Assembly (NCBI GenBank): GCA_902524595.1 | Contig: CABZDS010000006.1 | Location: forward strand, 1 to 64,000 | Length of the DNA: 64,000 nt | Source: an uncultured Pelagibacteraceae bacterium | Lineage (GTDB): Bacteria > Pseudomonadota > Alphaproteobacteria > Pelagibacterales > Pelagibacteraceae | Direction of reading: 5' to 3' | In this document: one piece after another, positions 39,388 through 41,278 of the stretch | Layout of the letters: each line of letters starts with the position of its first letter | Position numbering within the stretch: the first letter of the stretch is position 1 | Made by a program: the position numbers and the translations under genes | The notes under the pieces: generated by a model | Seen by the model: the letters and a program-made list of their open reading frames with translations, nothing else | Told to the model about the DNA's origin: nothing | The model's database searches: none

Positions 39388-39594
39388 ATGAGTAATAATT
39401 TAAAAGTTTCAATAATTATAATACTTGGAGTTATAGCATTGTATATATCAACTCAGTATTATTCAGGTTTTAATAAAAGCAAAACTATTAAAGCGTGTAT
39501 AATTGGAAAAGCTGAATTAGATTCGAATAAACCGGAGAGCGAAAGGCTCTCTGCTGATGAAGTTAAAAAATTTTGTGAAGATCAAATAAAATGA
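39388..39594 (+). CDS. small single-helix protein, 68 aa
   Basis: 68-residue protein with an N-terminal membrane anchor (about residues 6-23) and a periplasmic-type polar domain holding two cysteines (K-A-C-I-I-G near 37, K-F-C-E-D-Q near 64) that could form a disulfide. No family is known. It overlaps the aminotransferase gene by 4 bp (ATGA), showing a two-gene unit. Confidence 0.7.
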   Translation: MSNNLKVSIIIILGVIALYISTQYYSGFNKSKTIKACIIGKAELDSNKPESERLSADEVKKFCEDQIK

Positions 39595-40739
39595 TGAAAA
39601 AATCAAAAAGATCAGATGTTGATCCATTTATAGTAATGGATGTAATGGAATCAGCAAGAATTGCTGAGGAAAAAGGTAAAGATATAATTCATATGGAGGT
39701 AGGGCAGCCAGGAACACCAGCACCTAAGATTGCAAAAGATTATATTACTAATGAGATAAACAAAAACAATCTAGGCTACACTGTATCACTTGGTCTACCT
39801 GCTCTAAGAACAAAAATTTCAAAGCTATATGGAGATTGGTACAATTTAGATTTAAATCCAAATAGAATAGTAGTTACAACAGGTTCTTCTGGAGCCTTTA
39901 TATTGTCTTTTTCGGCGTTGTTTGATAGTGGAGATAGAGTTGGAATTGGATCTCCAAGTTATCCTAGCTATAGACAAATACTAAAATCACTAAGTTTGGA
40001 AACAGTAGATATTCAAACTAAACTTCAAAATAGATTTCAACCTGTTCCAGAAGATATTACAAATAATAATTTAAATGGAATTCTTGTTGCATCACCTGCA
40101 AATCCAACTGGGTCTATGTTAGATAAACAATCGCTAGAGAATTTAATTAATACTGCAAATGAGAATAATGTAAGTTTTATTAGTGATGAAATTTATCACG
40201 GAATTCAATATGAAAATAATCCAACATCAGCTCTAGAGATTACAGATAATTGCTATGTGATCAATTCTTTTTCAAAATACTTTTCCATGACTGGTTGGAG
40301 AATAGGGTGGATGGTTGTGCCAGATGATCATGTCAGACAAGTAGAAAGACTTTCGCAAAATTTGTTTGTTTGTCCACCACACGCAAGTCAAGTTACAGCT
40401 CTTGCTTCATTAGATGCAAATGAAGAGTTACAATCGAATGTTGACGTATATAAAAAAAATAGAGAGATACTTTTAGAGGAATTACCTAAAGCAGGATTAA
40501 AAAAGTTTTCACCACCTGATGGAGCTTTTTACATCTATGTTGATATTTCTGAATATTCAAATGATAGCTTAGCTTTTTGTAAAAAAGTTTTAGATGAAGC
40601 AAATGTTGCGATAACACCAGGAATTGATTTTGATCAAAAAAGAGGAAATTCTACTATCCGATTCTCATATGCTAGAAGCACAAAAGATATAATTGAAGGT
40701 GCTAAGAGAATTAAAGATTTTATGTCTAAAAATTATTAA
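39591..40739 (+). CDS. class I/II pyridoxal-phosphate aminotransferase
   Basis: 382-residue fold-type I aminotransferase of the aspartate-aminotransferase group. The M-E-V-G-Q-P opening is near residue 36, A-N-P-T-G near 167, the pyridine-binding Asp in S-D-E-I-Y near 195, and the PLP-lysine in S-F-S-K-Y-F-S-M-T-G-W-R near 228. The C-terminal I-R-F-S-Y-A binds the substrate carboxylate. Amino-acid specificity is not clear. Two ATGs in tandem (39591, 39594) make the first residue uncertain. A GC-containing terminator follows. Confidence 0.9.
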   Translation: MMKKSKRSDVDPFIVMDVMESARIAEEKGKDIIHMEVGQPGTPAPKIAKDYITNEINKNNLGYTVSLGLPALRTKISKLYGDWYNLDLNPNRIVVTTGSSGAFILSFSALFDSGDRVGIGSPSYPSYRQILKSLSLETVDIQTKLQNRFQPVPEDITNNNLNGILVASPANPTGSMLDKQSLENLINTANENNVSFISDEIYHGIQYENNPTSALEITDNCYVINSFSKYFSMTGWRIGWMVVPDDHVRQVERLSQNLFVCPPHASQVTALASLDANEELQSNVDVYKKNREILLEELPKAGLKKFSPPDGAFYIYVDISEYSNDSLAFCKKVLDEANVAITPGIDFDQKRGNSTIRFSYARSTKDIIEGAKRIKDFMSKNY

Positions 40740-40785
40740 ATGGGGTCAGCTCAATTGGTTATTATCAAAAGAGCTCCCCATTTTT
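40738..40785 (+). terminator. rho-independent terminator after the aminotransferase
   Basis: AAATGGGG (40738-40745) pairs with CCCCATTT (40776-40783), and AGCTC with GAGCT inside, separated by a two-base bulge. A T-tract (ATTTTT) follows. A second perfect hairpin (AAATCCAT/ATGGATTT, 3-base loop) occurs at 40800-40818 and may back it up. Confidence 0.8.
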
Positions 40786-40836
40786 ATGCCATTTTGGCCA
40801 AATCCATCAAATGGATTTAGTTTGTATTATTTTTAA

Positions 40837-40985
40837 TATGTGATATCTCACCAGCTAAGTGTCAGGTGGCGTTATTCTAAGCATTTGCACCTCCTTCACT
40901 TACGAAATTAAATTTTAAGTAGGTTGTATTCAACAAATTTATTTCTATTTTTTATAAATATATTATTTGAATACAACCTATTTCT
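40837..40985 (+). ncRNA. candidate structured small RNA
   Basis: The 347-base gap 40740-41086 holds no convincing ORF but has ordered structure. A TGTATTAT box (40823-40830) could start an RNA near 40837. Then come a 4-bp hairpin GTGA/TCAC (40840-40851), a two-part stem TAAGTG+AGGTG paired with CACCT+CACTTA (40856-40902), and a 13-bp perfect inverted repeat AGGTTGTATTCAA/TTGAATACAACCT (40921-40979) followed by ATTTCTTT, which could be the terminator. The 3' side of the middle stem contains CACCTCCTT, identical to the anti-Shine-Dalgarno end of 16S rRNA. All of this is visible; the RNA itself is a prediction. Confidence 0.4.
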
Positions 40986-41086
40986 TTAGTAGAATCTCGA
41001 CATCAAAATAATCAAAATTTTCCCAAACTCTTAAATGAAACTTATGTCACAGAGACAGATAATAAATATATTTGTAATTAAAACTA

Positions 41087-41278
41087 ATGAAAACGATATT
41101 TGTTATTGGATCAAAAAAACATACACTAAAGTACACAAGAAAAATGCCTGAGGGCGAAGTTAAGAAAATGAAATCTTTTGTTACAAACAAAGGACAGAAG
41201 CTTGAAAAAACTTTAAAATTTAAAATTTTAAAAATCTCAGACGATAAAACTTCAAGAACTTTCAAAATCAGTCTTTAA
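41087..41278 (+). CDS. hypothetical protein, 63 aa
   Basis: 63-residue, very basic (Lys-rich) soluble protein with a short hydrophobic start (T-I-F-V-I-G) and a beta-rich feel (K-H-T-L-K-Y-T-R...F-K-I-S-L). No family is recognised. It ends 8 bp before the photolyase ATG and is likely cotranscribed. The alternative that it is a chance frame is unlikely given the position and codon pattern. Confidence 0.55.
   Translation: MKTIFVIGSKKHTLKYTRKMPEGEVKKMKSFVTNKGQKLEKTLKFKILKISDDKTSRTFKISL

Follow-up and report, generated by a model that had tools for sequence, protein, structure and literature searches.

A frame-conserved micro-ORF in a candidate structured small RNA gene of Pelagibacter (SAR11)

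SAR11 bacteria, the ocean's most abundant, are poor in regulators, and very little of their DNA lies between genes. Two kinds of bacterial RNA are relevant to the locus described here: dual-function small RNAs, such as SgrS/SgrT, in which a stand-alone small RNA bears a small ORF, and the anti-Shine-Dalgarno (anti-SD) small RNAs with CCUCC loops found in Alphaproteobacteria. In S. meliloti, peTrpL/rnTrpL is a trpL-type leader that acts in trans (PMC7298713). For SAR11 itself, the survey of strain HTCC1062 by Meyer (2009) reported structured RNA candidates with other motifs (PMC2704228). A later study of strain HIMB5 (Stav 2019) mentions in its body three or more sORF motifs whose peptides have no defined function, with the details placed in its supplement (PMC6429828).

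In a window of 64,000 nucleotides from an uncultured Pelagibacteraceae bacterium (contig CABZDS010000006.1, positions 1 to 64,000), we found an intergenic unit that shares features with each of these systems. It is like the trpL-type attenuator leaders in having a very short ORF with an SD sequence, RNA hairpins around and after it, and, as judged from comparison and prediction, a translation state that could set the RNA structure. Unlike those leaders, it has no same-strand downstream gene and no codon run for one regulatory amino acid. The gene facing the RNA 3′ end was convergent in all 172 decidable loci and belonged to about a dozen gene families, so the unit is not the leader of a downstream gene. 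This count required an ORF of at least 80 aa and excluded seven contigs that were too short and two loci without such an ORF. For attenuation, a scan for intrinsic terminators gave no terminator-like sites in 40600-41200.

The unit is like SgrS/SgrT as a stand-alone small RNA with a small ORF, differing in that its peptide has only 6-10 residues and no base-pairing target was found. With regard to the properties of a dual-function small RNA, the unit shows a promoter-like block, conserved at the sequence level, that may give it a transcript of its own, and a strong comparative coding signal suggestive of a translated small ORF; for base pairing, a conserved 11-mer, taken as a full-length seed, had no perfect complement elsewhere in its own genome. 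As in the anti-SD small RNAs, CCUCC is present on one strand, but here it complements a real SD. The Meyer motifs come from the same clade, and none matches the unit by context or described fold. The HIMB5 sORF motifs, as far as the body of that study describes them, also come from this clade and may include the unit, and we do not claim its first sighting. Rfam 15 at gathering score had no matches in the window or in 18 related loci, and relaxed thresholds gave nothing credible. The unit is thus missed by Rfam, and also by ORF callers with ordinary length limits.

The unit lies in an intergenic gap of 347 nt (40740-41086), pointed out as unusually long in a first-pass annotation. On one side of the gap is an aminotransferase gene (39591-40739, plus strand); on the other, from 41087 and also on the plus strand, come a 63-aa ORF and then a photolyase gene. 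The 63-aa ORF (41087-41278) was 90-98% identical in relatives with the same context. Conservation covered about 40738-41008, a broader region than the 40786-40985 proposed by the annotation. All the elements it listed are present in the sequence, among them the small hairpins and the two-part stem, the CCTCC-bearing CACCTCCTT (40888-40896), and a long inverted repeat (arms 40917-40947 and 40953-40983, 84% complementary over 31 nt). A hairpin at 40738-40783 is present as well, and the scan mentioned above gave no canonical terminator there. Both sequences of its suggested switch, CACC (40849-40852) and GGTG (40865-40868), exist, but their pairing is not kept in relatives. Folding energy was far under that of shuffles on both strands (z of -7.3 for the minus strand and -7.6 for the plus strand); folding therefore exceeds chance, yet gives no choice of strand. 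No tRNA or tmRNA was found in the window.

Read on the minus strand, copies of the unit have GGAGG and, at normal spacing, an ATG that opens a short frame whose last codons are (Pro)-Pro-Asp-Thr-stop. In the window, the very strong SD AAGGAGGTG (40888-40896, minus strand) is the complement of CACCTCCTT, and its GGAGG is conserved. It stands before the micro-ORF MLRITPPDT-stop (40855-40884, minus strand). The ATG was in frame in all 64 distinct copies. The distance from ATG to the prolines ranged from one to about five codons; the spacing thus shifts while the frame is constant. The general pattern was M-x(1-5)-PP(D/E)T-stop, for a peptide of 6 to 10 residues. Across the 64 copies, the only changes in the tail were synonymous, D to E, or an exchange of stop codons. 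Third positions varied in four of the four sense codons of the tail and first or second positions in none of eight (exact p = 1/495, with positions treated as independent). The N-terminal residues varied freely, with the C-terminal residues and the stop kept.

In a sister genus, g12, the micro-ORF reads ATG TCA CCA CCT GAA ACT TGA (MSPPET-stop), with CCG, ACA and TAA as variants. One clade (L033, L034 and L038) had single-proline forms, MLKLPDT-stop or MLNLPDT-stop. The copies in this clade adjoin genes for a Fur/Zur-like regulator and a ZnuB-like transporter.

The strict pattern of an SD followed by PP(D/E)T-stop was found in 112 of 298 Pelagibacteraceae genomes, with one copy in each; the reversed pattern, used as a control, gave no matches. 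The unit is confined to Pelagibacter and g12, except for one match in genome G547 of genus g4, and roughly half the Pelagibacter (SAR11) sampled carry it. Since many SAR11 genomes are without it, the unit is dispensable. Considering the few regulators and scarce intergenic DNA of SAR11, the retention of a 240-nt RNA by roughly half the genus implies a conditional benefit. Among 201 genomes searched in its genus, many had strong to moderate matches to the non-coding stretch, in varied gene contexts. Covariance model R1, which represents the 3′ part, matched six g12 genomes and, of the 27 Pelagibacter genomes listed, 20. A scan of named genomes for the core motif found the SD and ORF at 110 of 119 loci, nearly all in Pelagibacteraceae (SAR11). 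The remaining nine loci, in unrelated bacteria, look like chance. When 190 genomes from across the class were searched with a covariance model, the matches were the genome itself and only two weak ones, in G472 (E 0.06) and in G209 (E 0.03), the latter without the ORF pattern. None of 53 genomes from another family in the order had the ORF pattern.

The consensus fold of the RNA consists of a stem between the SD and the proline codons and three 3′ hairpins. In an alignment of 38 sequences, 97.5% of the cells paired in the consensus and 12 pairs were changed on both sides. These covariation values were reached by none of 500 shuffles and by no slid control. Compensatory changes in the stems, whose lack among relatives the first-pass annotation would have taken as evidence against its proposal, were thus present. 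The support was strongest in hairpin 2 (AAATCC/GGATTT, 40800-40818), with paired changes from A-U to G-C and from C-G to U-A, and in hairpin 3, the terminal stem (40738-40783), with 8 of 12 pairs changed on both sides. Hairpin 1 (GCC/GGC, 40788-40798) showed a paired change from C-G to G-C in 4 sequences. The SD-proline stem is nearly invariant, and its covariation support is therefore thin. The convergent aminotransferase gene has its stop codon next to hairpin 3, which is possibly a 3′ end shared with this gene; the predicted RNA 3′ end abuts the same codon.

In hairpin 3, 42 cells would be G-U if the minus strand is the RNA against 8 that would be G-U if the plus strand is (A-C on the minus strand), although these cells come from related sequences and are not independent. 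This bias favours a minus-strand RNA, as do the reading frame and the promoter-like block. Coding signal and covarying helices, taken together, suggest that the small RNA is translated as well. The small RNA proposed in the first-pass annotation is supported as a conserved, structured small RNA gene, but not on the plus strand. A conserved promoter-like block reads on the minus strand, and the supposed anti-SD sequence complements a conserved SD that precedes a frame-conserved micro-ORF. The opposite-strand SD and 9-codon ORF, which it mentioned last, turned out to be the key feature.

The predicted RNA is about 240 nt long (40738-40979, minus strand), as judged from -10 spacing, covariation, the G-U bias and copies found with covariance model R1. 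Near its 5′ end is a hairpin formed by the inverted repeat (40917-40983), with a near-invariant first arm, GTTGTATTCAA. Position-wise conservation over 67 dereplicated loci gave 100% for ten of the eleven positions of this arm, GTTG[T/C]ATTCAA, and 97% for the other. The second arm has decayed in one clade (L040/L057/L092-type copies), implying a constraint on the sequence of the first arm itself. In the same 67 loci, a conserved block spans -31 to -9 relative to the invariant arm, with T-14, A-13 and A-18 conserved at 100%, and a TACTAA-like sequence stands upstream of the arm at a fixed distance. In the window this block (40986-41008, minus strand) comprises a GATNYCGGGAATC-type sequence and then the -10-like TACTAA (40991-40986), and is a putative promoter. 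From the -10 spacing, transcription would start at AGGTTG, at about 40979. No -35 element was evident upstream of TACTAA in the 67 loci. A conserved CGGGAATC-type block (40995-41008) lies just 5′ of TACTAA and is possibly an activator site or part of an unusual promoter.

Comparison of occupied and empty sites delimited the unit. In two genomes without it, 42 nt separate genes c0 and c17, as compared with 306-355 nt at filled sites, and this short spacer is similar to the end of the filled sites that lies nearest c17. The unit is thus discrete and about 300 bp long. The strand of the gene on its other side varies. In six genomes (G226, G012, G082, G203, G217 and G308) the unit and efp kept one relative orientation at a distance of 140-215 kb, with G235 and G240 as exceptions, which suggests that it is mostly at one chromosomal position where the neighbours turn over. 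The surroundings form a hot spot in which neighbouring genes differ between close relatives (flanks of L009-L095). These neighbours include genes for a small cytochrome-like protein, transporters, a HIBADH-like dehydrogenase and a methyltransferase.

We give roughly even chances to the explanation that the unit is a stand-alone minus-strand small RNA gene whose PP(D/E) micro-ORF pauses ribosomes, so that the RNA is gated by translation; the proposal is drawn from sequence comparison. The RNA would be transcribed from about 40979 to 40740, with its SD predicted to pair with the Pro-Pro codons and so to be held in a hairpin. A ribosome starting translation would open this hairpin and then pause at Pro-Pro-Asp/Glu right before the stop, holding the SD stem open. 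Ribosome occupancy could then determine how stable the RNA is, how it folds or where its 3′ end lies, and the RNA would act as a regulatory RNA gated by its translation state. In E. coli, PPD and PPE are among the EF-P-dependent pause sites, PPD being found only in the pausing set (PMC4140641). EF-P was present in all 41 genomes tested. A search of the unit's own draft genome for EF-P gave no match; with 41 of 41 elsewhere, the draft is probably just incomplete there. The single-proline copies in L033, L034 and L038 weaken the idea of a Pro-Pro pause. As a further step, which we regard as rather doubtful, the free-standing RNA might use its pause ORF of 6 to 10 codons to sense translation capacity, either as EF-P activity or as the charging level of the tRNAs for Pro, Asp/Glu or Thr, and act in trans. 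No trans target was found for the invariant 5′ 11-mer, whose only matches in its own genome are the two arms of the unit.

The main rival is a function of the peptide only, in which the micropeptide of 6 to 10 residues is the product, its C-terminal PP(D/E)T binds a partner and the RNA is a structured mRNA. The restriction of constraint to the C-terminal residues and stop, with D to E and synonymous changes, is what such a peptide would show. However, a plain mRNA needs just a terminator 3′ of the stop, where we found covarying helices, and the free variation of the N-terminal residues also speaks against it; we consider this explanation possible but improbable. The convergence of the facing gene in all decidable loci, the position of hairpin 3 next to its stop codon and the rapid change of neighbours would all be expected of a shared transcription-end module that insulates convergent genes at a gene-turnover hot spot, with the micro-ORF RNA being secondary. 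Such a module leaves the conserved frame of the micro-ORF and the promoter-like block unexplained, and no terminator-like sites were found by the scan. It is accordingly an unlikely account.

We consider two other readings to be far less likely still. A plus-strand small RNA exposing CCUCC as an anti-SD sequence would draw on the presence of CACCTCCTT and its stem and on the equal folding of the plus strand. The CCTCC is, however, explained by the opposite-strand SD with its in-frame ORF in 64 of 64 copies, and both the G-U excess in hairpin 3 and the promoter-like block point to the minus strand, which makes this reading very improbable. The patchy distribution and clean empty sites could suggest a mobile or selfish repeat, but the unit occurs as a single copy per genome, has no adjacent transposase, gave no match to its exact core pattern in IMG/VR and keeps its distance and orientation relative to efp in the six genomes; we hold this to be equally improbable.

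If translated, the micropeptide would be one of the shortest for which comparative coding evidence exists. The unit appears to be present in cultured strains, and the role of a stand-alone pause ORF is thus directly testable. The sole genus g4 copy (L311, contig C6 of G547) lies on a contig of 3,036 bp and is of the MSKLTPPDT-stop type, like Pelagibacter copies; it may reflect transfer or misbinning.
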